From Bradyrhizobium sp. NP1 (GTDB lineage: Bacteria > Pseudomonadota > Alphaproteobacteria > Rhizobiales > Xanthobacteraceae), in NCBI RefSeq assembly GCF_030378205.1, contig NZ_CP127385.1, forward strand, positions 1,962,001-2,026,000: 64,000 bases of DNA, in the 5' to 3' direction. Below, one piece after another: positions 8,883 to 54,497 of this stretch. The position numbers were made by a program, and so were the translations under genes. Position 1 is the first letter of the stretch. Each line of letters begins with the position of its first letter. The notes beneath the pieces were generated by a model, which saw only the letters and a list, made by a program, of their open reading frames with translations, did not search any database and was not told where the DNA came from.

Positions 8883-9278
8883 ATGGCACGTACCGTCATC
8901 GTTCCACCCACCGGCCTGCGGCCCGGCATCCCCTATTCGCCGGCGATCCGCTGGGACAAGCTCTTGTTCATCTCGGGTCAGACCGGCTCGGACCCGGTGA
9001 CGCGCGAATTTCCGGCCGACATCAAGGCGCAGACCCGCATCGCGCTCGAGAACGTCAAGGCGCTGGCTGAAGCCGGCGGCGCCTCGATGGACACGGCGCT
9101 GAAGATGACCATCCACATGACCGACATGATGAACGAGTTCGCGGCCATGAACGAAGTGTTCCGCGAATTCTTCCCGAAGGAGCCGCCGTCACGCACCACC
9201 GTCGGCGTGGCGCATCTGGCGCGCGCGGGCTTGAAGATCGAGATCGACATGATCGCCGTGGTCAAGGATGCGGTCTAG
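8883..9278 (+). CDS. RidA/YjgF-family protein 2
   Basis: This 131-residue protein has the RidA pattern IRWDKLLFISGQTGSDP and keeps the catalytic arginine in PPSRTTVGVAHLARAGLKIEIDMIAV, unlike the paralogue at 2574. An enamine or imine deaminase activity is therefore more credible here, for example on a 2-aminomuconate-like intermediate, but the substrate is not shown. GAAGGAAGC precedes the ATG, 33 bases after the LivF-like gene. Its stop codon TAG (9276-9278) is part of the terminal CTAG of the composite repeat that begins at 9275. Confidence 0.87.
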   Translation: MARTVIVPPTGLRPGIPYSPAIRWDKLLFISGQTGSDPVTREFPADIKAQTRIALENVKALAEAGGASMDTALKMTIHMTDMMNEFAAMNEVFREFFPKEPPSRTTVGVAHLARAGLKIEIDMIAVVKDAV

Positions 9279-9440
9279 TGGTCCGATTCTAACATTCGCA
9301 TCCCATCTGGGAGGCACGTTGGCGAATGTTAGAAGCAAAGGACCACTGGCAAACTATTGATGCTAGTGGAGCTTTGGATTTGACGTTCGCATGAAGGAAT
9401 CGTGGCAGATGGCTAGCGAACGTCAAATCCGCTCCACTAG
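9275..9440. repeat. Composite CTAG-bounded palindromic repeat, full copy 1
   Basis: This 166-bp element starts and ends with CTAG. Part A (about 9275-9346) is an imperfect hairpin: CTAGTGGTCCGATTCTAACA pairs with the later GAATGTTAGAAGCAAAGGAC stretch, with a smaller inner repeat TCCCATCTGGGA. Part B (9363-9440) is a second hairpin whose arms carry TTTGACGTTCGC and GCGAACGTCAAATCC, ending GCTCCACTAG. The reverse complement of the whole element occurs at 33441-33607, and a deleted form occurs at 14928-14981. No transposase is inside, so it is a non-autonomous mobile or REP-like sequence. Confidence 0.9.
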
Positions 9441-11034
9441 GCCGCAGTCCATCCTGCTGACGGGCGCGTTGATCGGTGATCGCGCGCCCGATGGCACGTT
9501 ATCCGACAGCCTGCTGATCCGGGACGGCGCGATCGCCTGGATCGGCACACGCAAGGATGCGCCGGCGGCCGACCGGGTCATCGACCTTGGTGGCAGCCGG
9601 CTCTTGCCCGGATTGACTGACGCGCACTTGCATCTGTTCATGCGCGCGCAGGAACTGCTGAATCTGGCGCTGGGGCCTGCGACGACGTCTGTCGAAGCAC
9701 TGCTCGCGCAGGTTCGAACTGCTTGTTCGGCCGCCTCGCCCGGCGAATGGGTGATGTCCGCCGACTACAGCGAGCAATTCCTGAAGGAGCGACGTCACCC
9801 CGCGCGCGCCGAGCTCGATGCTGTTTCCAATGGCCGTCCTGTGCTGCTGCGCCGCACCGGCGGGCACCTGTCGGTGGCGAATTCCGCGGCACTCGCACGT
9901 GCAGGCTTCGATGACACGACGCCCGACCCTCCGGGCGGCACGATCGAGCGTGCGCAAGGAAAACTCTCCGGCGTGCTCACCGAGCATGCCGCCGATATCG
10001 TCGCAGGCCTGATCCCGCCGCCGTCGCCGGCGCGCACCAGCGCGGCGATCCGCAAGTTCGCCGACGAATGTCTGGGTTTCGGCATCGTCGCCGCGGTGGA
10101 GGCCGCGGTCGGCTTCAATCATGGCTTCGAGGCCGAATGGAACGTCTGGAACGCCCTTCGCGAGGCAGGTGGCCTGCCGCTGCGCATGGGGTTCATGCTG
10201 CGGATCGATCCGGCCGACGCGAGGCGGCTCGACCTCGTGCCTTCTGGTATCGATCCGCGCTGGCAGGTGCGGACCCTGAAATTCTTTGTCGACGGCATCA
10301 TCGGCGCGCGGACCGCGGCGTTCTCGGAAACCTATGCCGATCGCGATAGCTGCGGCCTCCTGATGGAGGAGCCTGACGCATTGCGTGCCAAGGTGATCGA
10401 AGCCCATGCCGCCGGCTGGCAGCTCGCGGCGCATGTGATCGGCGACCGCGGCATCGGGACCTGGCTCGATTGTCTGGAAGCGGCCGCGCGAACCGCGCCC
10501 GGCGAAGGCCGGCGCCATCGCCTCGAGCATTTCGCGGTGCCGGGACATGACGCGATCGCACGCGTCCGCCGGCTTGGGGCCATTGTCGTGCCGCAATACG
10601 GATTCCTGCACCGGCTGGGTGGCTCCTTTGCGGAAGCGGTGGGACCCGCTCGCGCGCAGCGGCTCTATCCCGGCAGAAGCGTCCGCGAGGCGGGCGTCGT
10701 GATTGCCGGCAGTTCCGATCACCCGATCGGGCCGCTGTCGGCTTATCAGGCGATCGCGACGGCCGTCGACCGCACCACCGCCTCAGGTCTCCTGCTCAAT
10801 GCCGGCGAGGCCTTGTCCATGCGAGAGGCGCTTGCCGCCTATGCTGAGGGCGGCACCTTCGCGATGGGCCATGAGCGATCACGGGGCCGGATCGAGGTTG
10901 GCCGGCGTGCCGATCTCGCCGTGCTCGATCGCGACATTCTTGCTCTTGCGCCGGCGGATATTGCCGCGGCCAGGAGCCGCCTGACCCTGGTTGAGGGGGA
11001 AATCGTTCATTCGGACGGAACGCTGGCCGATTGA
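9391..11034 (+). CDS. YtcJ-like metal-dependent amidohydrolase
   Basis: The 547-residue protein matches the YtcJ/amidohydrolase-3 group: LTDAHLHLFMRAQELL with the HxH metal motif near residue 75, KFFVDGIIGARTAAFSE, AAHVIGDRGI, HRLEHFAVPGHD and SSDHPIGPLSAYQAI supplying further metal-ligand histidines and aspartate. Such enzymes hydrolyse amide or cyclic amide bonds on varied substrates. The conserved part begins only at about SILLTGALIG (residue 20); the preceding residues, including both candidate ATG codons (9391, 9409), are encoded by hairpin B of the repeat. The gene's original start may have been lost, or lies at a non-ATG codon after 9440. Confidence 0.83.
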   Translation: MKESWQMASERQIRSTRPQSILLTGALIGDRAPDGTLSDSLLIRDGAIAWIGTRKDAPAADRVIDLGGSRLLPGLTDAHLHLFMRAQELLNLALGPATTSVEALLAQVRTACSAASPGEWVMSADYSEQFLKERRHPARAELDAVSNGRPVLLRRTGGHLSVANSAALARAGFDDTTPDPPGGTIERAQGKLSGVLTEHAADIVAGLIPPPSPARTSAAIRKFADECLGFGIVAAVEAAVGFNHGFEAEWNVWNALREAGGLPLRMGFMLRIDPADARRLDLVPSGIDPRWQVRTLKFFVDGIIGARTAAFSETYADRDSCGLLMEEPDALRAKVIEAHAAGWQLAAHVIGDRGIGTWLDCLEAAARTAPGEGRRHRLEHFAVPGHDAIARVRRLGAIVVPQYGFLHRLGGSFAEAVGPARAQRLYPGRSVREAGVVIAGSSDHPIGPLSAYQAIATAVDRTTASGLLLNAGEALSMREALAAYAEGGTFAMGHERSRGRIEVGRRADLAVLDRDILALAPADIAAARSRLTLVEGEIVHSDGTLAD

Positions 11035-11086
11035 ATACATTCACTAACCGGTGATTTCGCCGGAGAAACGGGCTTTTCGGCAGGTA

Positions 11087-11100
11087 ATTAACATGTTAAT
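11087..11100. promoter_or_regulatory. Candidate MarR-type operator before the aldehyde dehydrogenase gene
   Basis: ATTAACATGTTAAT is a perfect 14-bp palindrome 84 bases upstream of the aldehyde dehydrogenase ATG, in an otherwise GC-rich region. Its AT-rich dyad resembles operators bound by MarR-family repressors of aromatic catabolism. The MarR gene at 14978 is the nearest candidate to bind it. Binding is inferred. Confidence 0.45.
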
Positions 11101-11184
11101 AGTATCGCCCACACACAGGCTCCGGGGCGAGCCCGCAAGCCGTGGCAGCCAGCATGAGCAGACGATAGCCTGAAAGGGAGCGAC

Positions 11185-12723
11185 ATGAACAAGCCTCTCG
11201 CCAACGATGCACTGACCGACAATCTGCGCAAGGCGCAGCAGTTCCTGGCCCGCTTCCGGTCCGCCACCGTGCCGCACCGGATTGCCGGTGAAGCCGTGAC
11301 GAGCAGCGCCACCTTCGAGGATTTCGATCCCTCCGACAATTCGGTGCTCTGCAACGTGTCGTCGGGAGGGGCCTCCGAGATCGATCGCGCCGCGCGCGCC
11401 GCGGAAGAAGCCTTCCAGGTCTGGAAGACCGTTCCCGGCGAGAAGCGCCGTGCGCTGTTGCACAAGATCGCCGACAAGATCGAGGCGCGCTCCGAGGAGA
11501 TCGCGCTGGTCGAGAGCATCGATAGTGGCCAGGCGATCCGCTACATGGCGAAGGCGGCGCTGCGCGGCGCCGAGAATTTTCGCTTCTATGCCGACAAGGC
11601 TCCGGAAGCGCCCGATGGCCTGTCGCTGCCGACCGAGACTCATCTCAACTACACGGTCCGCCAGCCGATCGGGCCGATCGGCGTCATCACGCCGTGGAAC
11701 ACGCCCTTCATGCTCTCGACCTGGAAGATCGCGCCGGCGCTGGCGGCAGGCTGCACGGTGGTGCACAAGCCCGCGGAGTGGAGCCCGCTCAGCGCGGTGA
11801 TCCTGTCCGAGATCATGAGCGAGGTGTTCGAGGGCGCCGGCTTGCCCAAGGGCATCGTCAACCTGGTCCATGGCCTTGGCGAGAGTGCCGGCAAGGCATT
11901 GACCGAGCATCCCGCGATCAAGGCGATCGCCTTCGTCGGGGAGTCCGTCACTGGCAGCCATATCATGGCGCAGGGCGCGCCGACCCTGAAGCGCGTGCAT
12001 TTCGAGCTCGGCGGCAAGAATCCGGTGATCGTGTTCGACGATGCCGACCTCGATCGTGCCCGCGACGCCGTGCTGTTCATGATCTACAGCCTCAACGGCC
12101 AGCGCTGCACGTCCTCGAGCCGGGCGCTGGTGCAGCGCTCGATCTACGACAAGTTCACCGCCGAGCTGAAGGCGCGTGTCGAGAAGATCAAGGTCGGCCA
12201 TCCGCTCGATCCCGCGACCGAGATCGGGCCCCTGATCCATCAGCGCCATGTCGAGAAGGTGCTGAGCTACGCCGGCCATGCGACCAAGGACGGTGCGCAG
12301 ATCGCGGTCGGCGGCAAGCGCGCGCTCGACGGCAAGGGCAATTTCGTCTGCCCGACGCTGTTCACGGATGCCAACAACAAGATGCGCATCGCTCAGGAGG
12401 AGATTTTCGGACCCGTGCTGACCGTGATCCCCTTCGAGGACGAGGCGGATGCGCTGCGTATCGCCAACGACGTCCGCTACGGGCTTGCCGCCTATATCTG
12501 GACCGGCGACGTCGGCCGCGCCCACCGCGTCGCGCAGGGTGTCGAGGCCGGCATGGTCTGGGTCAATTCAGAGAATGTGCGTCACCTGCCGACGCCATTC
12601 GGCGGTGTCAAGGCGAGCGGCATCGGCCGCGACGGCGGCGACTACGCCTTCGAGATCTACATGGAGCACAAGAACATCGCGATCGGGCTCGACAGGCACC
12701 GCGCACCGAAAATCGGGGTGTGA
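11185..12723 (+). CDS. Aldehyde dehydrogenase, muconate-semialdehyde type
   Basis: The 512-residue NAD(P)-dependent dehydrogenase has IGPIGVITPWNTPFML, the glutamate in HFELGGKNPVIVF and the catalytic cysteine in NGQRCTSSSR, a context shared with 5-carboxymethyl-2-hydroxymuconate and 2-hydroxy/2-aminomuconate semialdehyde dehydrogenases. It would oxidise the semialdehyde made by the extradiol dioxygenase. The ATG at 11185 follows GGGAGCGAC. A 150-base upstream gap with a palindrome suggests its own promoter. The cyclase-like gene follows 30 bases later. Assignment to the semialdehyde subgroup rests on the active-site context and neighbours; the exact substrate is open. Confidence 0.85.
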   Translation: MNKPLANDALTDNLRKAQQFLARFRSATVPHRIAGEAVTSSATFEDFDPSDNSVLCNVSSGGASEIDRAARAAEEAFQVWKTVPGEKRRALLHKIADKIEARSEEIALVESIDSGQAIRYMAKAALRGAENFRFYADKAPEAPDGLSLPTETHLNYTVRQPIGPIGVITPWNTPFMLSTWKIAPALAAGCTVVHKPAEWSPLSAVILSEIMSEVFEGAGLPKGIVNLVHGLGESAGKALTEHPAIKAIAFVGESVTGSHIMAQGAPTLKRVHFELGGKNPVIVFDDADLDRARDAVLFMIYSLNGQRCTSSSRALVQRSIYDKFTAELKARVEKIKVGHPLDPATEIGPLIHQRHVEKVLSYAGHATKDGAQIAVGGKRALDGKGNFVCPTLFTDANNKMRIAQEEIFGPVLTVIPFEDEADALRIANDVRYGLAAYIWTGDVGRAHRVAQGVEAGMVWVNSENVRHLPTPFGGVKASGIGRDGGDYAFEIYMEHKNIAIGLDRHRAPKIGV

Positions 12724-12753
12724 GCGCAGCGCGACCAAAAAGGGGAGATGGCG

Positions 12754-13578
12754 ATGAACAGCCGGCTGCCGGGCTTCGATGCGAAACTGTTCGGCGCGAT
12801 CGGGGCAGGGGCAAAAGTCTACGAGCTGTCGCATGCGATGGCGCCGTCGATGCCGGTCTATCATCAGCACATTCCCTATTCGCTGGCGTTGCATCGCCGG
12901 CATGGCGACCCGCATCCGAAGAAGCGGGAAGACGGCTCGAGCTTTGCCAACGAGGTGATCGTCACGTCAGGCCATTCCGGCACGCATATTGACGCGCTTG
13001 GTCACTTCTCTCGCAACGGCTGCCTGCATGGCGGCATCAAGGTGTCCGAGGTCGAGACCCGCGACGGCTATCGCGAGCTGAATGCGGCTGACATCCCGCC
13101 GATCATCCAGCCTGCCGTCGTCCTCGACGTCGCCGTCGCCAGGGGCGTCGACTGCCTCGGTCCGGCCGAACAGATTTCGGTTGCCGACATGGAGCGCGCG
13201 CTGGCGCTGAGCGGCTCCGAGATCAAGGCAGGCGATGCGGTCCTGATCCGAACCGGCTGGTCAAAATACTGGACCGATGGCGAGACCTTCATCGGCCGTC
13301 GCGGCGGCATGCCCGGCCCCGGCGAGGAGGCGGCGCGCTGGCTGATCGCGCGCGGCGCGACGCTGGTCGGCTCCGACACGCCGGGCTTCGAATGCCTGCC
13401 GACGCCGGGTGTCTCGGTTCACGCCATCATGCTGGTGGATGAAGGCATCCACATCATGGAAAACCTCAACCTCGACGAAATCGCTTCGCTGCGGCGCCCG
13501 CGCGTGCTGTTCATCGCGCTTCCCCTGCGCCTGTCGGGTAGCACCGGCTCGCCGATCCGACCGGTCGCGATCGCCTGA
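12754..13578 (+). CDS. Cyclase/kynurenine formamidase-like metal hydrolase
   Basis: The 274-residue protein carries the cyclase-family metal motif SGHSGTHIDALGHF (HxGTHxDxxxHF) near residue 75 and GSDTPGFECLPTPG later. Members include bacterial kynurenine formamidase and isatin hydrolase, which cut amide bonds with Mn or Zn. In a pathway containing a ring-hydroxylating dioxygenase and amino-group processing proteins, hydrolysis of an N-acyl aniline or lactam is plausible. The second ATG (12754) is chosen because AGGGGAG (12741-12747) touches the first ATG at 12748. It is probably co-transcribed with the aldehyde dehydrogenase. Its end faces the minus-strand LuxR-like gene 9 bases away. Confidence 0.82.
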   Translation: MNSRLPGFDAKLFGAIGAGAKVYELSHAMAPSMPVYHQHIPYSLALHRRHGDPHPKKREDGSSFANEVIVTSGHSGTHIDALGHFSRNGCLHGGIKVSEVETRDGYRELNAADIPPIIQPAVVLDVAVARGVDCLGPAEQISVADMERALALSGSEIKAGDAVLIRTGWSKYWTDGETFIGRRGGMPGPGEEAARWLIARGATLVGSDTPGFECLPTPGVSVHAIMLVDEGIHIMENLNLDEIASLRRPRVLFIALPLRLSGSTGSPIRPVAIA

Positions 13579-13587
13579 GGCGGCGTC

Positions 13588-13965
13588 TCAGAGATGGATC
13601 ACGCCGAGCCGCGCCGCATGCGCCACCGCATCGGTACGGCCGGTGGCGTCGAGCTTGTCGAGCAGCGAGCTGACGTGGAACTTGACGGTGTGCGCCGAAA
13701 TCCCAAGCCGCTTGGCGATCGCCTTGTTCGAGGCGCCTTCGGCCAATAGCCCCAGCACGTCGCGCTCGCGCGGCGTGAGGTCGAACTCCTGCGCTCCGGA
13801 GGTGCGCGGTGTCGTCCGCGACACCAGCGCCAGCGCGGCCGCCTCGCCCGGTGCGGCGATGCGCAGGCCGGCCACGCCGGCGAGCAGCGCGGCGATCCGG
13901 TCGGCCAGGACCGGATCCTCGACCTCGATGGCGACGACGATCGCTGAAGAACCTTCCTCGCTCAC
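13588..13965 (-). CDS. Short LuxR-type HTH protein lacking a full receiver domain
   Basis: This 125-residue protein has a complete C-terminal LuxR/NarL helix-turn-helix (LTPRERDVLGLLAEGASNKAIAKRLGISAHTVKFHVSSLL). The N-terminal 60 residues begin AIVVAIEVEDPVLADRIAALLAG, resembling the first alpha/beta units of a receiver, but no phosphoacceptor region or remaining receiver is present. The GTG start overlaps the stop of the upstream HtrA-like gene by GTGA, so the two are translationally coupled. It could be a regulator whose activity is set by the PDZ partner rather than by phosphorylation. That link is inferred. Confidence 0.8.
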   Translation of the reverse strand: MSEEGSSAIVVAIEVEDPVLADRIAALLAGVAGLRIAAPGEAAALALVSRTTPRTSGAQEFDLTPRERDVLGLLAEGASNKAIAKRLGISAHTVKFHVSSLLDKLDATGRTDAVAHAARLGVIHL

Positions 13966-14831
13966 GCTTCGCGCCTTTCGCCGATGGTGACCTTGAAGCG
14001 TGCTGGCTCGCCTGCGCGCCGCACGGCGACGTCGACGACCGAGCCGATGCTTTCCGGGCCGAGCGCCTGCAGTAGCGCCCGCACGCCGGAGAGCTTCTGG
14101 TCGTTCCAGGCGACGATGATGTCGCCCTGCCGGATACCCGCGGCCGCCGAAGGACCTTCGCCGTCGAGGCTCATCACCATCGCGCCGATCCCGTCGTCGA
14201 GCTTGACCGGTTGCAATCCGACGCCGAGATAGCCGCGCCCGATCCGCCCGTGGGTTTCGAGCCGGCTCGCGACGCGCTCGATCGTGGCCGAGGGAATCAC
14301 GAGCACGCGCCGCGGGCCGAGCACCGCCATGCCGATGGCTTCGCCCGTGGCATTGAGCGCGAGCCCGCCCTGGTGGCCGTGACGCAGCCGGACGTCGAGT
14401 TCGATCCTGGCGTCGATCTCGCCGCCGCGCAGGCTGCGCCAGGGCTTGCCGACCAGCGAGACAGTGCCGAGTGCAGCCGTGGGCACGCCGTGTTCCGCGG
14501 CGGCGACGACGCAGAGCGTGCCGAGCGCGGGGACCTGTTGCGACAGCGTGATCGGCGGAATGCTCCCGGTGTCGACGCGCAGCAATGCGACATCCGTGGT
14601 GTGGTCGCGTCCCGCGATAGTGGCCTGCTGCACGGAGCCGTCCGGCAGCCTGATCGAGACCTCGCCTTCGTCCGCGAGCGCCTCCTCGGCGGTGATGACG
14701 AGGCCTTTCTTCCACACGAAGCCGGTTGCCCGCAAACGGTGCGAATGCACGGAAACGATCGCGGGGGCAGCTCGTGCGACGACGTTCGTGATGGCGGAAG
14801 ATAGCGAAGCAAGGCTGGTTGTGTCGTTCAT
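13962..14831 (-). CDS. HtrA-like trypsin-fold/PDZ protein with lost catalytic residues
   Basis: The 289-residue protein has a trypsin-fold domain followed by a PDZ domain (RGYLGVGLQPVKLDDG, then AAAGIRQGDIIVAWNDQKL), as in HtrA/DegP. Two of three catalytic positions are changed: the histidine region reads GLVITAEEALADEG, and the GNSGG serine region reads GHQGGLALN. The aspartate region RDHTTDVALLRVD remains. No signal peptide is seen from the chosen ATG, so it may be cytoplasmic. The ATG at 14831 has TGGAGGG eight bases upstream. It is coupled to the short LuxR gene, which suggests a ligand- or peptide-sensing role in place of proteolysis. Confidence 0.82.
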   Translation of the reverse strand: MNDTTSLASLSSAITNVVARAAPAIVSVHSHRLRATGFVWKKGLVITAEEALADEGEVSIRLPDGSVQQATIAGRDHTTDVALLRVDTGSIPPITLSQQVPALGTLCVVAAAEHGVPTAALGTVSLVGKPWRSLRGGEIDARIELDVRLRHGHQGGLALNATGEAIGMAVLGPRRVLVIPSATIERVASRLETHGRIGRGYLGVGLQPVKLDDGIGAMVMSLDGEGPSAAAGIRQGDIIVAWNDQKLSGVRALLQALGPESIGSVVDVAVRRAGEPARFKVTIGERREA

Positions 14832-14927
14832 GGATCCCTCCAAATGGATTTTCTCCAATCTGGGAATTTTACACGCCACGGTGAACTAGCCGGATGGTCA
14901 GGCTTCTCGCCAGCAGATCGACGCAGT

Positions 14928-14981
14928 CTAGGGGAGCGGATTTGACGTTCGCTACCCATTTTGCCGGAATCGGACCACTAG
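14928..14981. repeat. Composite palindromic repeat, internally deleted copy 2
   Basis: This 54-bp segment begins CTAGGGGAGCGGATTTGACG and ends GGAATCGGACCACTAG. Its left 37 bases match the outer arm of hairpin B and its right 17 bases match the outer arm of hairpin A of the full copies, joined directly with about 112 bp missing. It keeps CTAG at both ends. The right-hand CTAG includes the stop codon of the MarR gene. Confidence 0.85.
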
Positions 14982-15562
14982 CCCGCGCCTTGCGCGCCGC
15001 GCCTGATTCGCTTCACCGGCGCGTGGCTCGAATACGGAAGGTCGGATTGGTCGCCCATGTGGGGAATGCGATCTTCGAGATGGCGGATCACGCGCAGGAA
15101 CGTCTCGACCGATTTCGCATCGAGCCCCGCGGTAAGATTGTCGTGGCGCCTGAGAATTTCGCTCAGGCTGCGATCGAGCAACTCGGTGCCGGCCTTCGAC
15201 AGCCGGATCTCCGAGCGGTTGCGCGCGTCGCCCTTGACCTGCTCGATCTTGACCAGGCCCTTGCGGGCGAGCGCGCCCGCCTCGCGGCTGACGACGGCCT
15301 TGTCGAGGCTGGCCCGGGTCCAGATGTCGTAGGCGCTGGCCGGCTGGTGCTCGGCGAGAAAGGACAGGATGCGCCACTGCGCGAGCGAAACGCCATAGCG
15401 CTGCAGGAAAAACACGTTCGAGCTTGCCCTGAGCCTGGCGACGAAGCTCGACAGCACGGTTGGGATATAGCGGTCGAAGTCGATGACGAGCTTCGCGTGG
15501 CTCGCCGCCTTTGCATTTCCCGGCGCGGGGGCGGCTCTCGTCCTGGTGCTTGGCTGTGTCAT
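14978..15562 (-). CDS. MarR family transcriptional regulator
   Basis: The 194-residue protein has the MarR winged helix: YGVSLAQWRILSFLAEH, then SLDKAVVSREAGALARKGLVKIEQ and a wing at GDARNRSEIRLSKAG. An extended Ala/Pro-rich N terminus precedes it. The ATG at 15562 follows GAGGTGA; the frame is open to 15643. Such repressors commonly control aromatic degradation and respond to the substrate. Perfect dyads at 11087-11100 and 19502-19520 are possible targets. The stop codon TAG (14978-14980) is supplied by the repeat copy 2, and the last residues RRGAQGAG lie just outside the repeat. Confidence 0.83.
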   Translation of the reverse strand: MTQPSTRTRAAPAPGNAKAASHAKLVIDFDRYIPTVLSSFVARLRASSNVFFLQRYGVSLAQWRILSFLAEHQPASAYDIWTRASLDKAVVSREAGALARKGLVKIEQVKGDARNRSEIRLSKAGTELLDRSLSEILRRHDNLTAGLDAKSVETFLRVIRHLEDRIPHMGDQSDLPYSSHAPVKRIRRGAQGAG

Positions 15563-15667
15563 GGAATTTCGTTCATCACCTCGATCGTGTGGAGCGACGT
15601 CCGTCGGTTCCCGCACAAGAGCAAAGTCAGCCGGCGCGATCAAGGGCGGCGGCTCAGGGCTGCTTTC

Positions 15668-16996
15668 TCAGCGCGCGGCCTGTGCGGCCTGGATCAGCTT
15701 CGGCCGCGCGATGAAGATCAGCACTGCGGCCGCAACCAGAACGCCGGAGACCACCAGGAAGCCGCCGGTGAAGCTGCCGCTAGCATCCTTGATCCGTCCG
15801 ATCACGACAGGGATCAGTGCGCCGCCGATGCTGCCGATCATGGCCACCAGCCCGATCGCGCCGGGCGCGCTTTCCCGCGACAGATAGGATTGCGGGATGG
15901 TCCAGAACACCGCCTGCGTTCCGTAGACGCCGACATTGGCGACCATGAAGCCGACGATGATCAGCACCGGCGTGGTCGCAAAGGCGGCGATCGCGAAACC
16001 TGACGCCGCGAGCAGCATGGTGGCGATCGTATAGTAGAAGCGTTCGCCGACATGGTCGGAATGACGCGACAGTGCAATCATCCCCACCAGTCCGGCGATC
16101 GGCGGGATCGCGGTGACCATGCCGACCTGTGATGCCGGAAGCCCGAACGTCTTGATGATCTGCGGCAGCCAGGGGAACAGCGATGCCAGTGCGCAAAACA
16201 GGCCGAAATTGCAGAGGCCGAACAACAGCACCATCGGCCTTGTGATGGTCCTCCACACGCCTTCGCCATGCACGACGCCCCTGGCGCGCGTATCATGTTC
16301 AAGCGCGCCGTTGAGCCATCTTTTCTGTTCCGTCGTCAGCCAGCTGGCATCGTTGGGACGGTCGGTCAGGTAGAAGATGCCGACAACGCCGAGGATGATC
16401 GGCGGCAGGCCTTCCAGGATGAACAGCCATTTCCATCCGGGAATGCCGAGGGTGCCATGCAGCTCGAGTATGGCCCCTGAAATCAGCGAGGCGAAGATAT
16501 AGGAAATCGGCACCGCATAGTTGAACATCGCGTTGTAGCGCGCGCGATATTTGAACGGAAACCACAGGCTCAACAGCAGCATCACGCCGGGAAACAGGCC
16601 GGACTCGGCAAAGCCAAGGAAGGCCCGGAAAGCATAAAGGCTCAAGGGTCCTTGCGTGAACGCCATCAGGACGGTGGCGATGCCCCAGAGGATCGCAATG
16701 CGGGTGAGCGTGATGCGGGCGCCGTAGCGGCCGAGGATCAGGTTGCTCGGTATCTCGAACAAGGCGTAGGTGAAATACATGATGCCGACGCCGATGCCGA
16801 ACATCTCGGCATTGAGCCCGAGATCCTTGTTCATCGAAAGCGCGGCAAAGGAGATGTTGCCGCGATCGAGGATCGCGAGAAAATACATCGCCATCACGTA
16901 CCACATCAGCCGCCGCGCGACGGCGCGGATGGTCGTGCTTTCGACCACCTGTTCGTCGGCAGAGGCGAAGGCCTTCTCGACCGCGAGCTCGGACAT
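15668..16996 (-). CDS. MFS transporter, anion:cation symporter-like
   Basis: The 442-residue protein has about 12 membrane segments and MFS loop motifs, with LDRGNISFAALSMNKDLGL in the first part and LILGRYGARITLTRIAILWG between helices 2 and 3, as in the phthalate, 4-hydroxyphenylacetate and tartrate carriers of the ACS family. It probably imports an aromatic acid by proton symport. It is the last gene of a minus-strand run with the ring-hydroxylating dioxygenase, 30 bases after the ferredoxin gene, so it likely carries the dioxygenase substrate. Confidence 0.87.
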   Translation of the reverse strand: MSELAVEKAFASADEQVVESTTIRAVARRLMWYVMAMYFLAILDRGNISFAALSMNKDLGLNAEMFGIGVGIMYFTYALFEIPSNLILGRYGARITLTRIAILWGIATVLMAFTQGPLSLYAFRAFLGFAESGLFPGVMLLLSLWFPFKYRARYNAMFNYAVPISYIFASLISGAILELHGTLGIPGWKWLFILEGLPPIILGVVGIFYLTDRPNDASWLTTEQKRWLNGALEHDTRARGVVHGEGVWRTITRPMVLLFGLCNFGLFCALASLFPWLPQIIKTFGLPASQVGMVTAIPPIAGLVGMIALSRHSDHVGERFYYTIATMLLAASGFAIAAFATTPVLIIVGFMVANVGVYGTQAVFWTIPQSYLSRESAPGAIGLVAMIGSIGGALIPVVIGRIKDASGSFTGGFLVVSGVLVAAAVLIFIARPKLIQAAQAAR

Positions 16997-17026
16997 GCGC
17001 TTTCTTCCTCCCTGGTCGGCCGCGTC

Positions 17027-17356: not shown

Positions 17357-17358
17357 GG

Positions 17359-19490: not shown

Positions 19491-19520
19491 CTGATAGTTG
19501 TCTTGACAACCATTGTCAAG
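19491..19520 (-). promoter_or_regulatory. Promoter overlapped by nested dyad operators, dioxygenase operon
   Basis: On the minus strand TTGACA (19519-19514) and TATCAG (19496-19491) are spaced by exactly 17 bases, a good sigma-70-type promoter reading into the alpha subunit gene. The same DNA is CTTGACAACCATTGTCAAG (19502-19520), a perfect dyad with 8-bp arms, and GTTGTCTTGACAAC (19498-19511), a second perfect dyad that overlaps it. A repressor bound here would block RNA polymerase. A MarR-family repressor such as the one at 14978 is the likely ligand, by family and distance. Confidence 0.65.
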
Positions 19521-25228: not shown

Positions 25229-26929
<1,701 letters not shown>

Positions 26930-26936
26930 GCTAACC

Positions 26937-28142
26937 ATGCCAAACTTCCGATATCGTGCGTTGACACAGAGCGGCGAGATCGTGCACGGCACTGTTTCCG
27001 CATCGAGCGCGATCGAGGTTGCCGCGCGGATCGAATATCTTCGCCTGTTGCCGATCGAGACGATGGAGGAAAAGCGCAACGCGTCCGCTGGTCTCGGCCT
27101 GTTCGGCCGGCCGGGCGCGACCGAGGTCACGACTTTCACCCGTGATCTCGCGCTGCTGCTGAAAGCCGGTGCACGCCTCGACGACGCGCTCGAACTGCTG
27201 GCTGGCGATGCCGATGTCGGCAGGCTGCGTCCGATCGTCGCCAAAATGCGGGCGGCAGTCATGAGCGGCGACAGCTTTGCCGACGCGGTTGCTGCACACC
27301 CCGATCTGTTCGCGCCGATGTATGTCGCGCTGGTGCGGGTAGGCGAGGTATCCGGCACGCTCGACCAGGTGCTGGAGATGCTGGGCGCCGAACGCGCGCG
27401 TGCCGAGCAGATGCGCCGCAAGCTGACGGATGCGATGCAATATCCCGTCTTCGTGCTGATCGCGGCTGTTGGCGTGATGCTGTTCTTTATCCTGTTCGTG
27501 CTGCCGCAATTTTCCTCGGTGCTGCAGGATTTCGGCAACAAGTCGGATTCCGCGCTCAGCGTCTTCATCGGCATCTCGGACTTCATGCGGGCCAATGGCG
27601 AGATGCTGACGGCGGCGAGTGCGGGGCTTACCGTGTCGACATGGCTGCTGCTGCGGCGGCCGGGCACCCGAACGGCTGTCATCGCCGGCCTCGCGCGCCT
27701 GCCCGGCGTTGCCGGCATCTTCCGGTTCTACCGGACCAGCCTGTTCTGCCGCAATCTTGGCGTCCTGCTCGGTAGCGGTGTCAGCCTGACGGCCACCTTG
27801 CGTATCCTGATCGACATCATGGCCGTCACGGGCAATGTGGAAGCCTGGACGGCGGCCGCCGATCGCGTGCGTCACGGCGGCAAGCTGTCGGAAGCACTTT
27901 CGGCTTCGAATAGCCTGCCGCCGATGGCGCTGCGGATGCTCCGCCTCGGCGAGGAGACCGGCCAACTGCCCGTGCTGGCCGGCCGGGTCGCCGAGTTCTA
28001 CGAAGCGAAATTGCAGCGCAGCCTCGATCGCGCCGTGGCCATCGTCGGGCCGCTTGCCATCATCACGATCAGCGCTGTCGTCGGCGGCCTGATCGTCTCG
28101 GTCATGACCGCGTTGTTGTCGGTCACGCAGCTCGTTGGATAG
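26937..28142 (+). CDS. gspF: Type II secretion inner-membrane platform protein GspF
   Basis: The 401-residue protein has two GspF domains, each with a cytoplasmic helical bundle (FTRDLALLLKAGARLDDALELL; RTSLFCRNLGVLLGSGVSL) and hydrophobic segments (VFVLIAAVGVMLFFILFVLP; IITISAVVGGLIVSVMTALL). The motif ALVRVGEVSGTLDQVLEML is characteristic. It starts 7 bases after gspE. It anchors GspE and extracts pseudopilins from the membrane. Confidence 0.94.
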   Translation: MPNFRYRALTQSGEIVHGTVSASSAIEVAARIEYLRLLPIETMEEKRNASAGLGLFGRPGATEVTTFTRDLALLLKAGARLDDALELLAGDADVGRLRPIVAKMRAAVMSGDSFADAVAAHPDLFAPMYVALVRVGEVSGTLDQVLEMLGAERARAEQMRRKLTDAMQYPVFVLIAAVGVMLFFILFVLPQFSSVLQDFGNKSDSALSVFIGISDFMRANGEMLTAASAGLTVSTWLLLRRPGTRTAVIAGLARLPGVAGIFRFYRTSLFCRNLGVLLGSGVSLTATLRILIDIMAVTGNVEAWTAAADRVRHGGKLSEALSASNSLPPMALRMLRLGEETGQLPVLAGRVAEFYEAKLQRSLDRAVAIVGPLAIITISAVVGGLIVSVMTALLSVTQLVG

Positions 28143-28153
28143 GGGGCATCGCC

Positions 28154-28645
28154 ATGTCAGGAAAAATCGGGATCGGGACACCTAGCTCGCTTGTCGCAGC
28201 CGGGACGAGCAGGGAGAGCGAGCAGGGCTTCACCCTGGTCGAAATGCTCGTCGTCATCACCATCATCGGCTTGATCATGGGGCTGATCGGCCCGCGCGTG
28301 CTCAATTATCTGAGCGAGTCGAAGGTCAAGGCGGCCAGGATCCAGATGCAGAGCTTTTCCAGCGCGCTTGACCTCTTCAACCTCGATGCGGGCCGTTATC
28401 CGTCGACGGCGGAAGGGCTCGCCGCCCTGGTTCGCCGCACGCCGGGTATCGCCGCATGGAACGGCCCTTACCTGAAGGGCGGCAACGTTCCCAACGACCC
28501 CTGGAACAATCCGTACATCTACCGCGCTCCCGGAGAGCACGGCGCCTACGACATCATCTCGCTGGGTTCGGACGGGCAGGAAGGCGGCACCGGCGTCGCC
28601 GCCGACATCTCGCTCGACACCATGACGAGCGCAAGAAACGAATAA
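28154..28645 (+). CDS. gspG: Major pseudopilin GspG
   Basis: The 163-residue protein has the prepilin cleavage site EQG|FTLVEMLVVI after an unusually long leader of about 25 residues, then the hydrophobic helix. The C-terminal part has the GspG pattern LDLFNLDAGRYPSTAEGLAALV, GGNVPNDPWNNPYIYRAPGEHG and ISLGSDGQEGGTG, which includes the calcium-binding loop residues. It would be processed by the peptidase at 33604 and polymerise into the pseudopilus. Confidence 0.94.
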   Translation: MSGKIGIGTPSSLVAAGTSRESEQGFTLVEMLVVITIIGLIMGLIGPRVLNYLSESKVKAARIQMQSFSSALDLFNLDAGRYPSTAEGLAALVRRTPGIAAWNGPYLKGGNVPNDPWNNPYIYRAPGEHGAYDIISLGSDGQEGGTGVAADISLDTMTSARNE

Positions 28646-28651
28646 CATCAC

Positions 28652-29116
28652 ATGAGCAGGGCCGGCGAGCAGGGCTTTACGCTTCTGGAGATGGTGTGCG
28701 TGATCGCGCTCATCGCCATGCTGGCGGCTGTGCTGCTGCCGTTCGTCCCCCATCACACTTCGCGCTCGCGGCTGCAGGCCTATGCGCTGGAAGCCGCGAC
28801 GTTGCTGAAAGCCGATCGCAACGCCGCAATTCGGCGCGGCGCCGACGTCTCGACCCTGGTCGACGCGGCATCACGCGCGATCCGGTCCGGCGCGACCGCG
28901 CAGACGTTGCGTATTCCCGATGATGTCCGCTTCGATGCGCTGCTGCCGCAGACCTGCCGCCAGCGCCCGGCGCTCTCGACCGTCAGCTTCTTCGCTGACG
29001 GCATGTCGTGCGGCGGCACGATCGCGCTGGCGCGGCTCGACACGGCTTACGAAATTCGCGTGAACTGGCTGACCGGGAGGATCGAAATTGTCTCGCGCCC
29101 GACGCTCGCCAACTGA
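28652..29116 (+). CDS. gspH: Minor pseudopilin GspH
   Basis: The 154-residue protein has a short leader and cleavage site EQG|FTLLEMVCVIALIAML, then a weakly conserved globular region with LKADRNAAIRRGADVS and SFFADGMSCGGTIAL, as expected for the H pseudopilin (T2SS GspH domain). It starts 6 bases after gspG. GspH joins I, J and K at the tip or shaft of the pseudopilus. Confidence 0.88.
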   Translation: MSRAGEQGFTLLEMVCVIALIAMLAAVLLPFVPHHTSRSRLQAYALEAATLLKADRNAAIRRGADVSTLVDAASRAIRSGATAQTLRIPDDVRFDALLPQTCRQRPALSTVSFFADGMSCGGTIALARLDTAYEIRVNWLTGRIEIVSRPTLAN

Positions 29117-29495
29117 TCGGCCGGACGCCGGCTTCACGATCATGGAAGTGCTGATCGCACTTGCCGTCGTCGCGGTCTCGATCGTTGCGATCGGTTCGGT
29201 GATGTCGACCAATGCGCGCGGCGTCACGAAGCTGGAAAACCATGTGGCGCTGATGCAGTCCGTGCAGACGGTGCTCGCGACCGCGATACCGCAGCGCAAG
29301 GAGCTTGGCCCGGGGCGGCTTTCCGGCGAGCTGCGCGACTATCGTTGGCAGGTCGACATCGCGCCGCTCGGCGGCGACTGGGAGGTGAAGGACGCGCCCT
29401 GGATACCGGAGCTGGTCACGGTCCGCGTTCGTTCGCCGACCGGCGCCACGGTCGATCTTGAAACCGTCCGTCTGATGCGGGGAGCGCGCCGATGA
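29088..29495 (+). CDS. gspI: Minor pseudopilin GspI
   Basis: The 135-residue protein has the cleavage site DAG|FTIMEVLIALAVVAVS and a domain with MQSVQTVLATAIPQRKELGPG and YRWQVDIAPLGG, as in GspI. The start is a TTG preceded by GGAGG (29078-29081 region), overlapping gspH by 29 bases, so translation is probably coupled. GspI nucleates the minor-pseudopilin tip with J and K. Confidence 0.88.
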   Translation: MSRARRSPTDRPDAGFTIMEVLIALAVVAVSIVAIGSVMSTNARGVTKLENHVALMQSVQTVLATAIPQRKELGPGRLSGELRDYRWQVDIAPLGGDWEVKDAPWIPELVTVRVRSPTGATVDLETVRLMRGARR

Positions 29496-30229
29496 CAGGC
29501 CAAGCCGACATCAGGCGAAGGGCCGAGCAGGGCTTCACCCTGGTCGAGGCGCTGGTGGCGCTGGCGTTGACCGGGCTCGTGCTGTCGGCGCTCGCGACGC
29601 TGACCGCGCAATGGCTGCCGAGCTGGAATCGCGGTTTCGATCGCATCCAGCACAGCGAGCTGATCGGGATCGCGATGCAGCGGATCGCCGCCGACCTCGC
29701 TGCGGCCGAATATGTGGCCGCCGGACGCGAGCGGAAAAGGCCGCTGTTCGATGGGTCGGCCCTGTCGGTCACCTTTGTGCGCACCGCGCTCGGTCCCAAT
29801 GCTGGCGTGGGCCTCGATGTGGTGCGGATCGGCGAGACGACCGATCAGGGGCGGCTGGTGACCCTGCGCACACGCATGCCGTTTGCGCCGCTGCCGCCGG
29901 GCGTCTCGCCATCAGAGCAGATTCATCCGGCCGATCCGGTGGTGCTGCTGCGACCGCCCCTCCGGCTGTCGTTCTCCTATGCCGGGCCAGATCGCCTCTT
30001 CCGTGACACCTGGCAGGACATGGACAAGCTGCCGGCGGCAATCATGCTGACGGTCCGCGATGCGGCAAGCGAGCGGGTGCTGGCGGTGTCGACGGTGACG
30101 CCGGTTCACGTCAATGCGCCCGCTACCGGCGCAAAATCCGACGACGACCAGAAGGATGGAGCGAAGGACGACATCAAGGATGGCAGCAAGCCGGCCGGCG
30201 GCTCGAGCAGGGAGGGCGGCGCCTCATGA
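29492..30229 (+). CDS. gspJ: Minor pseudopilin GspJ
   Basis: The 245-residue protein has EQG|FTLVEALVALALTGLV and then LIGIAMQRIAADLAAAEYV, the GspJ pattern. The C-terminal 35 residues are a Lys/Asp/Ser/Gly-rich tail (DDDQKDGAKDDIKDGSK) that is not part of the usual domain and is probably disordered. It overlaps gspI by ATGA. It forms the I-J-K tip complex. Confidence 0.88.
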   Translation: MTGQADIRRRAEQGFTLVEALVALALTGLVLSALATLTAQWLPSWNRGFDRIQHSELIGIAMQRIAADLAAAEYVAAGRERKRPLFDGSALSVTFVRTALGPNAGVGLDVVRIGETTDQGRLVTLRTRMPFAPLPPGVSPSEQIHPADPVVLLRPPLRLSFSYAGPDRLFRDTWQDMDKLPAAIMLTVRDAASERVLAVSTVTPVHVNAPATGAKSDDDQKDGAKDDIKDGSKPAGGSSREGGAS

Positions 30230-31137
30230 CGCAAGCGAATTCGCCTCGCCTGTCCGAGCAGGGTTTCGTCATCGTTGCGGTGCTGTGGCTCGTTGCGGCC
30301 CTGGCCGCGCTCGCCCTGGTCTTCTCGATCTATCTGTCGAATTCGGCGCGGGCGCTGGCGCTTGGCGACACGGCGGCACAGACGGAAGCGCTGGTGTCGG
30401 CGGGCGTCGAACTTGCGGCCTACCAGTTGCAGCTCGCGGCGGAAGAGTCGCGCCCGGCGCAAGGAGCATTCCGCATCCGGATCGGCAGCGCGGACCTCGC
30501 CATCTCCTATGTCTCCGAAGCGGCGCGGATCGACCTCAACGCGGCGCCGAAGGAGCTGATTGCCGGCCTGCTGTCGGTGCTTGGCGCTGGCGAGGATGAG
30601 GCCAGGGAAGGGGCCGATCGCATCGTGGCGTGGCGGACCCGCTCGACGCCGGAGAGCGCGGGCAATGAGGACGCGCTCTATCGCGCCGCCGGCCGCAGCT
30701 ACTCGCCGCGCCAGGCGCCGTTCGTCCATATCAACGAGCTCGGTCTGGTGCTCGGGCTGTCGCCCGCATTGGTCGAGCGCGCGCTGCCTTTCGTCACGGT
30801 GTTCAGCGGTGCCTCCGGCGTCGATGTGCTGACCGCGGCACCGGAAGTCATCGCATCGCTGCCCGGCATGACGCCGCTGATCCTCAAGGCGTTTCTCGAT
30901 GAACGCAGCGCGTTGCCGGACGACAAGACGGCGATCGCGGCGGCACTGGGCACGGCTGCGGCGAGCGCGAGCCAGCAGCGCAGCCGTGCCTATCGCATCC
31001 TTGTCCGCATTCGCCTTCCGAATGGCCGCGAAAACGCATCCGACGTGGTGATCGTGCTTCGCAACGACGAGGAACCTTATCGCGTGCTGTCGTGGCAGGA
31101 CGTGACCGCAAGCTTCCGCGCGCGGAGGTCGTCATGA
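30226..31137 (+). CDS. gspK: Tip pseudopilin GspK
   Basis: The 303-residue protein has EQG|FVIVAVLWLVAALAALAL, lacking the fifth-position glutamate as is usual for GspK, followed by ARIDLNAAPKELIAGLL and helix-hairpin-helix-like helical insert segments (INELGLVLGLSPALVERALPFVTVFSG). GspK caps the pseudopilus. It overlaps gspJ and gspL by ATGA junctions. Confidence 0.88.
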   Translation: MTQANSPRLSEQGFVIVAVLWLVAALAALALVFSIYLSNSARALALGDTAAQTEALVSAGVELAAYQLQLAAEESRPAQGAFRIRIGSADLAISYVSEAARIDLNAAPKELIAGLLSVLGAGEDEAREGADRIVAWRTRSTPESAGNEDALYRAAGRSYSPRQAPFVHINELGLVLGLSPALVERALPFVTVFSGASGVDVLTAAPEVIASLPGMTPLILKAFLDERSALPDDKTAIAAALGTAAASASQQRSRAYRILVRIRLPNGRENASDVVIVLRNDEEPYRVLSWQDVTASFRARRSS

Positions 31138-32213
31138 ATGGAGCGCTTGCCGAATTGAAGGCACTGCTCGCGGTCTGGATCACGGCGGTCGCCGCGGCCG
31201 TGAACGCGACGATGGCGAGAATCCGGCCGCAACCGCGTATCCGCATGGTCGAGGGCGAGGATGGTCGCTTCACCGCGTGCCTTGTCGCTGCGCCGAAAGG
31301 CGCGGTCCTGCCGGATCTGTCATTTCATGTGGCGCACGACCGGTGCGAGCCGACACCGAGCGCGGAATGGCGGACCGTACTGCGCGGCAGCCGCATCGAG
31401 CTGTTGCTCAGGCCGGATCAGGTGCTGTTCCGCACTCTCGATTTTCCGAGGCAGGCGGCCGATTTCCTCGACGGCATGGTCCGCGCACAGATCGACCGTC
31501 TGACGCCCTGGGCCGCGAGTGAGGCGCTATTCGGCATCACCGCAGCAGCGACGGCACCGAACGATCGCATCGCGGTGACGCTCGCGGCGACCGCGCGGCA
31601 AAGGATTGAGCCGCTGCTCAGGCTGGCGTCAGGTTTCGGCGCGACATCCATCGCCGGTATTGTCGAGGTGTCCGAAGCTGGGCGGGCAGCGCAGCCGATC
31701 AAGCTGTTCGAGACAGTGCTGGCCGGCGCCGGCAGCGCTGCCATCGATATTCCCCGCTTGCTGCGCCTGACCCTGGTTGGTGCCGCAGCTGCAGCTGCGC
31801 TTACGCTTGCGATCACTGGCTATGTCGGCGGCAGGCTGGAGGCGGAGCAGCAGGGTCTGCAGCAGCGGATCGCGCAGCGGCGCGCGGCCCTGCGCATCGC
31901 GCAGCCCGGCGGATCGGCCGAAACACTGCTCGCCCGGCGCAAGCAGACTTCGCCGCCGAGCGTGATGGTGCTCGAGGCCGTCTCCAGGGCCTTGCCCGAC
32001 ACCACCTATGTGACGGAGCTCAGGATCGAGGCCGACAAGATGCAGGTGGTCGGCCTCACCCAGGATGCGCCGTCCCTGATCAGGCTGTTGGAGCAGTCGC
32101 CGCAATTCACCCGGGCCACCTTCTTCGCGCCAACCACGCGCGGCCAGAGTGACCCGGGCGAGCGATTCCACATCGAGGCGCATATCACACCTTATTTTGG
32201 ATCGGGATCATGA
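31134..32213 (+). CDS. gspL: Type II secretion assembly protein GspL
   Basis: The 359-residue protein has an N-terminal actin-like cytoplasmic part (RIELLLRPDQVLFRTLDFPRQAADFLDGMVRAQIDRLTPW), one membrane helix (LTLVGAAAAAALTLAITGYVGG, around residue 210) and a periplasmic ferredoxin-like part with the PilN-like pattern VMVLEAVSRALPDTTYVTELRIE. It links GspE to the membrane platform. The ATG at 31134 overlaps the gspK stop; an earlier in-frame start would lie inside gspK. Confidence 0.87.
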   Translation: MNGALAELKALLAVWITAVAAAVNATMARIRPQPRIRMVEGEDGRFTACLVAAPKGAVLPDLSFHVAHDRCEPTPSAEWRTVLRGSRIELLLRPDQVLFRTLDFPRQAADFLDGMVRAQIDRLTPWAASEALFGITAAATAPNDRIAVTLAATARQRIEPLLRLASGFGATSIAGIVEVSEAGRAAQPIKLFETVLAGAGSAAIDIPRLLRLTLVGAAAAAALTLAITGYVGGRLEAEQQGLQQRIAQRRAALRIAQPGGSAETLLARRKQTSPPSVMVLEAVSRALPDTTYVTELRIEADKMQVVGLTQDAPSLIRLLEQSPQFTRATFFAPTTRGQSDPGERFHIEAHITPYFGSGS

Positions 32214-32770
32214 ACGGCGTCGCGACCTTGCGAAGAATCCTCGGCAAGCCGCTCCCCGCGGCCGCGCTCTATCTCGGCGTCTTGATGCTATGTCTGTTCG
32301 AGATCGCCGGCGCATTGAGCGACTTGGCGAGCCGGCGCGCCGAGGTCGCTGCGGCGTCCGCGATGCTGGAGCAGTTCGAAGGCCGCAAGGCCGCGTTGGC
32401 ACGCGGCCAGGGCTCCGACATCAACGCGCCTGCCGGCTCCCCATTCCTCGAAGGCGCGACCGTGACGGTGGCGGGCGCAGCATTGTTGCAGCGTGTTTCA
32501 GCCGTGGTGACAAGGCTCGGCGGCAACGTGCTGTCGTCGCAGGTCGATCTGCAGGGCACGCAGTCCAAGGCGGGATTCGTCAGCATCATCGCAAGCTGCG
32601 ACATCGATCAGCCGGGCCTGCAGCAACTGCTCTATGACCTCGAAGCGGGTATGCCGTTCCTGTTCGTCGATCAGCTCTCGGTGCAGGCGTCGGCGAATTT
32701 CGCAAGCGCAGGCGAGGGCAGGCTGCGCATTCTGCTCGCAGTCTCGGGACAATGGCAGGGGGCGAAATGA
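32210..32770 (+). CDS. gspM: Type II secretion assembly protein GspM
   Basis: The 186-residue bitopic protein has one N-terminal membrane helix (AAALYLGVLMLCLFEIAGAL), a short coiled-coil region, and a small alpha/beta domain with GFVSIIASCDIDQPGLQQLLYDLEAG and FLFVDQLSVQA, matching the GspM type II family. It partners GspL. It overlaps gspL and gspN by ATGA junctions. Confidence 0.85.
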   Translation: MNGVATLRRILGKPLPAAALYLGVLMLCLFEIAGALSDLASRRAEVAAASAMLEQFEGRKAALARGQGSDINAPAGSPFLEGATVTVAGAALLQRVSAVVTRLGGNVLSSQVDLQGTQSKAGFVSIIASCDIDQPGLQQLLYDLEAGMPFLFVDQLSVQASANFASAGEGRLRILLAVSGQWQGAK

Positions 32771-33444
32771 CGGTGCGGAAGACGAGAAGGACCGCCACGT
32801 GGCTGTTTCTGCTGGCGTGCGTCGGATCGGTGCTGCCGGCACCCACCTCGGCTTTGCCGACCGACGCGCCATCGCTCGATGCGGAGGTGCCTCCCCGCGC
32901 TGACGCGCCGGCTGGCTCTTCGCTGTGGGATACGCCGGCTGCTCCCGCGCCGATCGTCGTGCGGCCGCCCGAGCCGCCGCCCGTTGCGCCGTCGCGCACG
33001 CCGAGCGCGAACCCGCTCTGGGGCATCCCGCTCGCCACTCTGTCTGCGACGCGGGAGCGACCGATCTTCTCGGTGTCGCGGCGTCCGCCGCCACCCGCCG
33101 TCGTCGCGGCACCCGTGGTGAAGCCGCCGCCAGCGCCGAAGCCGCCCCGGATCGAGCGTCCGCAGCTCGCGCTGGTCGGCACCATCGCTGGCGGCGACGA
33201 AAGCTTCGGCATCTTCGTCGATCAGGCGACCAAGGCAGCGCTGCGCCTCAGGATCGGAGAGGACTATCAGGGCTGGAAGCTGCGCGCGGTGCAGGGCCGC
33301 GAGGTGACGCTTGAGCGCGACCAGCAGACCACGACCTTGAGCCTGCCGCAGCCCGGCGCCGGCAGCGTCGGCGCGGCGCGTGCGTCGACCGACAAGGCAA
33401 TGGCACAGGACGACGATCCGTCGCCACGAAGGGCCCGGCGCTAG
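32767..33444 (+). CDS. gspN: GspN/GspC-like type II secretion protein
   Basis: The 225-residue protein has an N-terminal hydrophobic segment (WLFLLACVGSVLPAPTSA), a long Pro/Ala-rich linker with RERPIFSVSRRPPPP, and a C-terminal homology-region-like beta domain (LALVGTIAGGDESFGIFVDQ, then LRIGEDYQGWKLRAVQGREVTLE). This is the GspC HR or GspN pattern that binds the secretin N0 domain. No separate gspC is seen, so it may fill that role. The final stop TAG (33442-33444) is part of the terminal CTAG of the repeat copy 3. Confidence 0.8.
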   Translation: MTVRKTRRTATWLFLLACVGSVLPAPTSALPTDAPSLDAEVPPRADAPAGSSLWDTPAAPAPIVVRPPEPPPVAPSRTPSANPLWGIPLATLSATRERPIFSVSRRPPPPAVVAAPVVKPPPAPKPPRIERPQLALVGTIAGGDESFGIFVDQATKAALRLRIGEDYQGWKLRAVQGREVTLERDQQTTTLSLPQPGAGSVGAARASTDKAMAQDDDPSPRRARR

Positions 33445-33607
33445 TGGAGCGGATGTGACGTTCGCTACCCATTTGCCACGATTCCATCATGCGAACGTCA
33501 AATCCAAAGCTCCACTAGCACTAAGAACTTAGCTCGTGGTCCTTTGATTCTAACGTTCGCAAACGTGCCTCCCAGATGGGATGTGAATGTTGGAATCGGA
33601 CCACTAG
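33441..33607. repeat. Composite CTAG-bounded palindromic repeat, full copy 3 (inverted)
   Basis: This 167-bp element is nearly the exact reverse complement of copy 1: hairpin B comes first (CTAGTGGAGCGGATGTGACG to AAATCCAAAGCTCCACTAG), then a divergent linker containing CTAAGAACTTAG, then hairpin A ending GGAATCGGACCACTAG. Both hairpins keep the same arms, including the three-base TTT bulge of hairpin B. It separates the convergent gspN and prepilin peptidase genes and could act as a bidirectional terminator. Confidence 0.9.
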
Positions 33608-54491: not shown

Positions 54492-54497
54492 CCGGTC

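Follow-up and report, generated by a model that had tools for sequence, protein, structure and literature searches.

The 64,000-nucleotide stretch of Bradyrhizobium sp. NP1 DNA analysed here (contig NZ_CP127385.1, positions 1,962,001 to 2,026,000; hereafter the window) carries two inverted copies of a palindromic repeat which is very probably a miniature non-autonomous transposable element (MITE) of the IS630 (Tc1/mariner/IS630) type. The element is dispersed, about 165 bp long and without a transposase, it is absent at orthologous sites in other species, and in sequence its outer arms are like the terminal repeats of IS630 elements. It is thus short and non-coding and has many dispersed copies, as a MITE should; terminal repeats in common with IS630 elements were found for the family, not for the window's own subfamily.

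Each copy follows the plan CTAG, hairpin A, linker, hairpin B, CTAG, with hairpins of about 75 nt each. The linker-facing arm of each hairpin carries three additional bases, AAA in A and TTT in B, and the linker in the family has the pattern CTAGCAA, 7-8 nt, TTCTAG. The parts in the window are:

9275..9440, plus strand: full element copy 1 (hairpin A, linker, hairpin B), 166 bp, by BLAST, covariance model and alignment
9275..9299, plus strand: copy 1, outer arm of A, the outer terminal repeat (CTAG and the IS630-like end)
9322..9349, plus strand: copy 1, inner arm of A, the terminal repeat in inverted form, carrying the AAA insertion at 9337-9339
9350..9362, plus strand: copy 1, linker separating the inner CTAG-type ends
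9363..9390, plus strand: copy 1, inner arm of B, with the TTT insertion at 9373-9375
9416..9440, plus strand: copy 1, outer arm of B, the other outer terminal repeat
33441..33607, minus strand: full element copy 2, 167 bp, inverted relative to copy 1 and 90% identical to it
33583..33607, minus strand: copy 2, outer arm of A, by alignment
33533..33560, minus strand: copy 2, inner arm of A, by alignment
33519..33532, minus strand: copy 2, linker, by alignment
33491..33518, minus strand: copy 2, inner arm of B, by alignment
33441..33465, minus strand: copy 2, outer arm of B, by alignment
14928..14981, no strand assigned: 54-bp internal-deletion derivative, an outer B end joined to an outer A end, with CTAG at both ends

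An earlier description of the window, made from its letters alone (the sequence-only reading), had reported two inverted, CTAG-ended A+B units at 9275-9440 and 33441-33607, and the alignment bears this out, together with the two long hairpins per copy, the AAA/TTT bulge on the inner side and the lack of a transposase gene within either copy. Its description of the copies as near-exact, with only the linker diverged, has to be corrected: 150 of the 167 aligned columns are identical, and the differences also lie in the arms and loops. It had also overlooked the 54-bp derivative and a family size well beyond two copies. Folded as single-stranded DNA, both window copies beat 200 of 200 shuffled sequences (z of -12.2 for copy 1 and -6.7 for copy 2). 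The covariance model, whose training set included copy 1 and left out copy 2, scored them at 175 and 152 bits, respectively.

The element is abundant in its own genome, a single contig of 7.71 Mb. BLAST gave at least 79 matches, at least 43 of which span 148 or more of the 166 bases (40 of the 182 candidates were scored); in many of the remaining 36, a hairpin is aligned with the opposite strand of itself. Searched with up to three mismatches, the outer-arm patterns occur at 117 sites for A and 124 for B, the reversed patterns at none; at least two of the A sites listed are inner arms. Pairing was drawn from the 100 A sites and 100 B sites listed: 58 of these A sites face a listed B site at a distance of 154-164 bp, 4 at a shorter and 6 at a longer one, and 32 have no partner among the B sites listed. 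Nineteen of the 30 own copies retrieved went into the analysis of identity and of the inner offset described below; their pairwise identity has a median of 87.6% and a maximum of 95.8%. The loci also include decayed, truncated and internally deleted copies, as well as tandem arrays (L052, where neighbouring copies share one CTAG, and L053). A second subfamily, with the same plan and different stems, was met as a nested element in L042 and has further copies in L067, L072 and L077.

Several of these derivatives are worth describing in their own right. The L042 element (positions 535-836 of the locus, about 6221934-6222235 of the genome) is a hybrid in which a first-subfamily A hairpin, a complete second-subfamily element and a first-subfamily B hairpin follow one another, with one CTAG common to both sides of every join and the original linker lost; the inner arm of its first-subfamily A hairpin matches the second subfamily. 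Two 72-bp internal-deletion copies (L055:393-464 and L079:459-530, near 3744195 and 5091361) have an identical deletion junction at different sites, which may reflect either repeated deletion or transposition of a shortened form. Still shorter derivatives of 34-36 bp (L046 and L083, near 4016227 and 2108776) keep CTAG at both outer ends. A parent with a gene between A and B was sought in the own genome and rejected: the 40 stretches inspected, with arms at odd distances or unpaired, were decayed, hybrid, nested or complete copies, and half-hairpin models run over 82 loci gave no such arrangement among the matches listed.

How far the family extends depends on the means of searching. By sequence search the element was recovered from 4 of 41 genomes, and the exact linker pattern occurred in 3 of 265; within the genus, the covariance model found it in 176 of 265 genomes, the own genome being included in all three counts. 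The model further detected it in 76 of 397 genomes sampled from the order, which represent 34 of 141 genera, and, in a phylum sample, in 15 of 398 genomes, all of the same class, the share of other classes in that sample not being stated. At most 10 candidates per genome were scored in the genus scan and at most 7 in the order scan. Over named genomes, the linker pattern gave at least 114 stretches; the 80 listed, some of them from metagenome-assembled records, include Chelatococcus, Mesorhizobium, Hyphomicrobium, Methylocystis, Nitrobacter, Devosia, Roseibium, Acidiphilium, Novosphingobium and Parvularculaceae. The sequence-only reading had taken confinement to one genome, or an identity as conserved orthologous leader elements of particular genes, to speak against mobility; the family is present in many genomes, and while some copies share a site, many are dispersed. 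In draft genomes (for example L192, L194, L196, L213, L214 and L221) elements are cut at the end of the stretch, several near a contig end, as expected if the repeat breaks short-read assemblies. Carriage by phage was considered and dropped: there was no phage match, and the linker is present in two small contigs of a viral collection.

Filled and empty sites were compared. Among 121 elements, CTAG stands at the left end in 109 and at the right end in 100. The element at 9275 is absent in a related genome (G196), where its flanks are contiguous and one CTAG alone closes the RidA-family gene. A second element (L027) is absent in another relative (G225), again with a single CTAG there; in the filled genome this CTAG is a stop codon on both strands. 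In the genus of genome G561, sister species lack the element at four sites (L324, L325, L327 and L328), and at L328 genome G599 has a single CCAG in place of the element's CTAG. When flanks were joined artificially, a match across the junction was found for 3 of 7 loci in one set, in which only 2 candidates per genome were scored, and for 4 of 6 in another; a plasmid search for close empty sites found none. The proposal that a non-autonomous element spreads as an A+B unit is supported by the dispersed copies, the empty sites, the pairing of 58 of the 100 listed A sites and the IS630-like ends. The suggestion that the two window copies might invert the segment between them found no support, the flanks at 9275 being contiguous in G196; recombination between the copies is possible in principle, and has left no trace at 9275.

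The connection to IS630 came from the outer ends. A plasmid search with a copy from Roseibium gave a 31-bp match to the end of the element in nine plasmids of Rhizobium, Agrobacterium and Allorhizobium, and in five of the nine an annotated IS630-family transposase lies at the match. The insertion sequence (IS) of Rhizobium jaguaris runs from CTAG to CTAG over about 1.16 kb, and its protein has a DDE_3 domain and matches the IS630 model NF033545; the stop codon of this transposase falls within the terminal CTAG, as seen in L369. Altogether, 18 of the 22 ends of 11 ISs match some outer arm of the family at 15-20 of the 20 bases after CTAG, while none of 4,400 shuffled IS ends reached 15 (the maximum was 14). 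Five of the 11 ISs are interrelated (76-100% protein identity), so the ends are not independent. The ISs of B. barranii and Bradyrhizobium sp. 2S1, with no clear repeat pair, were left out of the set, and for the Hoeflea IS the second-ranked repeat pair was used. A second control of 2,201 CTAG 24-mers from all loci was unusable, as it still held the elements' own arms. Closer to the window, two IS630 elements on Bradyrhizobium plasmids have three of four ends matching the second subfamily of the NP1 genome at 15-16 of 20 bases.

From this anatomy a route of movement can be proposed. An IS630-family transposase acting in trans would cut at the outermost ends, and the whole A+B unit would be pasted into the TA of another CTAG with duplication of the TA. 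A preference for TA within 5'-CTAG-3' was reportedly described by Tenzen and Ohtsubo in 1991, going by the title of their paper. Each end of the element is an inverted duplication, or foldback, of the terminal repeat, in which the inner insertion would shift the transposase-binding part away from the cleavage point and leave the inner ends unused. With the inner ends unused, A and B plausibly move as one unit. Insertion at TA with duplication of the TA is given for IS630/Tc1/mariner elements in PMC2170065.

Several results weigh against an IS630-type MITE, or at least limit it. No IS630 element with ends of the window's subfamily was found, the best being a Nitrobacter IS at 14 of 20, in searches that did not extend to IS630 genes of the own genome. 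This value equals the top of the shuffled range; the partner of the window's subfamily would be an IS with CTAGTGGTCCGATTC-type ends. In none of the four IS ends tested does the repeat have an inverted counterpart close by: the best agreement was 11-13 of 24, compared with 17 in the element. The hairpins are thus a feature of the MITE, and since IS630 repeats need no foldback, the strong covariation of the stems needs a further reason. The closest pair among the 19 own copies, at 95.8%, gives nothing to show very recent activity. An exact CTAG was seen at only two empty sites: none of 25 relatives at the L002 site carries CTAG, and the relatives at L324, L325 and L327, with three of four at L328, carry other bases, so that these sites show the absence of the element and not its target. 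Finally, CTAG flanks both sides of filled sites and a single tetramer is left at empty ones, an arrangement in which duplications of TA (2 bp) and of CTAG (4 bp) are indistinguishable.

The foldback ends, with their offset inner arms, are unusual. In a 24-sequence alignment, RNAalifold gave 50 pairs, 25 of them with changes on both sides. Across 75 A hairpins (72 of them distinct), 97.9% of the cells are paired, against a mean of 82.7% in shuffled alignments and at most 39.5% in slid structures, and double changes occur in 20 of 23 pairs; the length stays near 165 bp across the family as both arms of the stems change in concert. In 149 of 150 hairpins the inner arm carries an offset of 2-5 nt, usually of 3 or 4 nt and rich in T (74 of 75 for A, the remaining one being unclear, and 75 of 75 for B); each of the 19 own copies tested has it in A as well as in B. 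This insertion lies about 10 bp from the CTAG of the inner repeat; the method places it after base 10 by assumption, and the gap pattern of the alignment agrees. The 75 copies (alignments A3 and A4) comprise 66 hand-chosen from 212 matches, less exclusions (L207, L198, L251 and L210), and 13 earlier copies. Omitted in the hand choice were other-strand duplicates, fragments at contig ends and some further copies in the same loci. Most of the aligned loci were found through the exact linker pattern, so the conservation of the inner CTAG is an effect of data selection.

One explanation of such stems is that the foldback has a function, either as single-stranded DNA when the element transposes or is replicated, or as RNA at the 3' ends of genes, with IS630 supplying only the movement. 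Selection of this kind would keep the arms paired and the bulge in place, which fits the paired cells, the double changes, the nearly universal inner offset and the frequent position at stop codons. We consider it possible but on balance doubtful, since template-switch correction from arm to arm could preserve complementarity in the absence of selection, and two copies outside the offset set (L031 and L089) have the TTT in each of the two A arms. In a related and equally tentative proposal, the element would belong to a family of structured MITEs spanning the class, with selection acting on the fold besides the ends, and the inner repeat copies would be complementary to the outer ones and spoiled for cutting by a small insertion at a fixed place. 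The inner copies might then offer the transposase a second set of binding sites, or act as a lock that makes the half-elements travel together, and each lineage might change its stems in step with its own IS630 transposase. The arms may remain complementary through selection of the fold, through second binding sites or through arm-to-arm correction.

A pair of inverted hairpins also brings to mind the repetitive extragenic palindromic (REP) sequences, and the sequence-only reading had raised a REP-like unit with a REP-associated tyrosine transposase (RAYT). The element would in that case be a giant REPIN (REP doublet forming hairpins) or bacterial interspersed mosaic element (BIME), in which two REP palindromes in inverted orientation are mobilised as folded single strands by a Y1 (HUH) transposase associated with REPs. 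The inverted dimer of one hairpin module, the bulge and the tetranucleotide foot are REPIN-like, and the strong stem covariation also speaks for it. This origin is nevertheless very unlikely. Among 35 element-rich genomes (35 of the 40 with the maximum number of candidates scored in the genus and order scans, the own genome left out), 25 have no Y1_Tnp match at E ≤ 1e-3 and 10 have one. Both Y1 matches in the own genome adjoin a different, GTAG-tagged REP (GTAGGGTGGGCAAAGCG...), with no CTAGTG in the 3.3 kb around each, and the outer ends of the element resemble IS630 repeats. According to PMC3733652, published Bradyrhizobium REPs are GTAG- or CGTC-tagged, the CGTC stems being 8-9 bp, and a REP is a GTAG/CGTC palindrome of 20-40 nt; the element has hairpins of about 75 nt and CTAG. 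The RAYT proposal was accordingly given up. The two own-genome Y1 genes (L060 and L061, at 1466708-1467004 and 5441865-5442161) are similar to each other and RAYT-like, and beside their GTAGGGTGGGCAAAGCG-type REPs form a separate REP system. Readings of the element as attC-like or Helitron-like were dropped as well, as IS630 ends explain the termini better.

The position of the element relative to genes has also to be accounted for. Both full window copies abut a stop codon:

9276..9278, plus strand: TAG within the left CTAG, which terminates the RidA-family gene 8883-9278 as its stop codon
33604..33606, minus strand: TAG of the outer CTAG, in-frame stop of a hydrophobic protein, prepilin-peptidase-like as judged by eye and not by a family search

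In the wider set, 66 of 232 element ends supply, with their TAG, the stop codon of an open frame of 100 codons or more, and 59 of 116 elements do so at one end or both; for CTAGs elsewhere in these loci, taken as control, 78 of 467 tests gave such a stop codon. The excess over the control is modest, so much of the stop-codon position follows from the targeting of CTAG. That CTAG often contains a TAG stop, and that an insertion repeating the tetramer spares the stop codon, would explain why many copies abut gene ends harmlessly.

A conserved 3' regulatory RNA or terminator, vertically inherited with particular genes, was also considered, and it could draw on copies found at one site, with the same flanks, in several Bradyrhizobium species (L117/L119/L120/L122; L121/L123/L126/L127/L160; L103/L108/L112). 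Some of these same-site copies end in something other than CTAG, and we regard them as old fixed insertions with the hairpins kept. The empty orthologous sites and the tandem arrays make an inherited RNA highly improbable. There is no T-run 3' of the hairpins in the window copies, and Rfam at gathering score gave no match on the element in the window and 19 loci; the sole matches in the 19-locus scan, one tRNA and one TPP riboswitch, lie elsewhere.

Elsewhere in the window, three tandem repeats occupy 53124-57163; they are spaced by about 1.38 kb, are in parts 65-78% alike and have the appearance of paralogous genes in tandem.

The identification as an IS630-type MITE gives one identity to a repeat that is found in many genera of the Alphaproteobacteria and missing from Rfam, and ties it to a transposase family amenable to testing. 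With their inner insertion, the foldback ends suggest a simple route by which two half-elements may become one transposing unit. The positions at stop codons and at contig ends of drafts are of relevance for annotation, and perhaps for gene expression at 3' ends. Open-access titles and the openings of abstracts gave no description of the repeat, which may be in print in the subscription literature; a word search of a review of prokaryotic MITEs (PMC10969869) found no mention of IS630 or rhizobia.

Among known systems, RIME1 of Rhizobium and Sinorhizobium is an intergenic repeat of about 108 bp with two large palindromes. It is similar to the element in having two palindromes in rhizobia and differs in length. 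RUP and Nezha, which are IS630-related MITEs, are likewise short and non-coding and have terminal repeats; neither is known to have two hairpins whose asymmetric bulges are conserved, or a structure with covarying stems across a class. RUP of Streptococcus pneumoniae and Nezha of cyanobacteria are named among MITEs in PMC3733652. With REPs, BIMEs and REPINs the element has in common an inverted hairpin pair with a tetranucleotide foot, but its hairpins are about 75 nt long, CTAG takes the place of GTAG or CGTC, and it does not depend on a resident Y1 transposase. It is closest to the IS630 insertion sequences, with a terminal sequence like its outer arms and CTAG at the ends. Unlike them, it has no transposase and measures 165 bp instead of 1.13-1.19 kb, and both of its ends are foldback duplications of the repeat, which are missing in the four IS ends tested.

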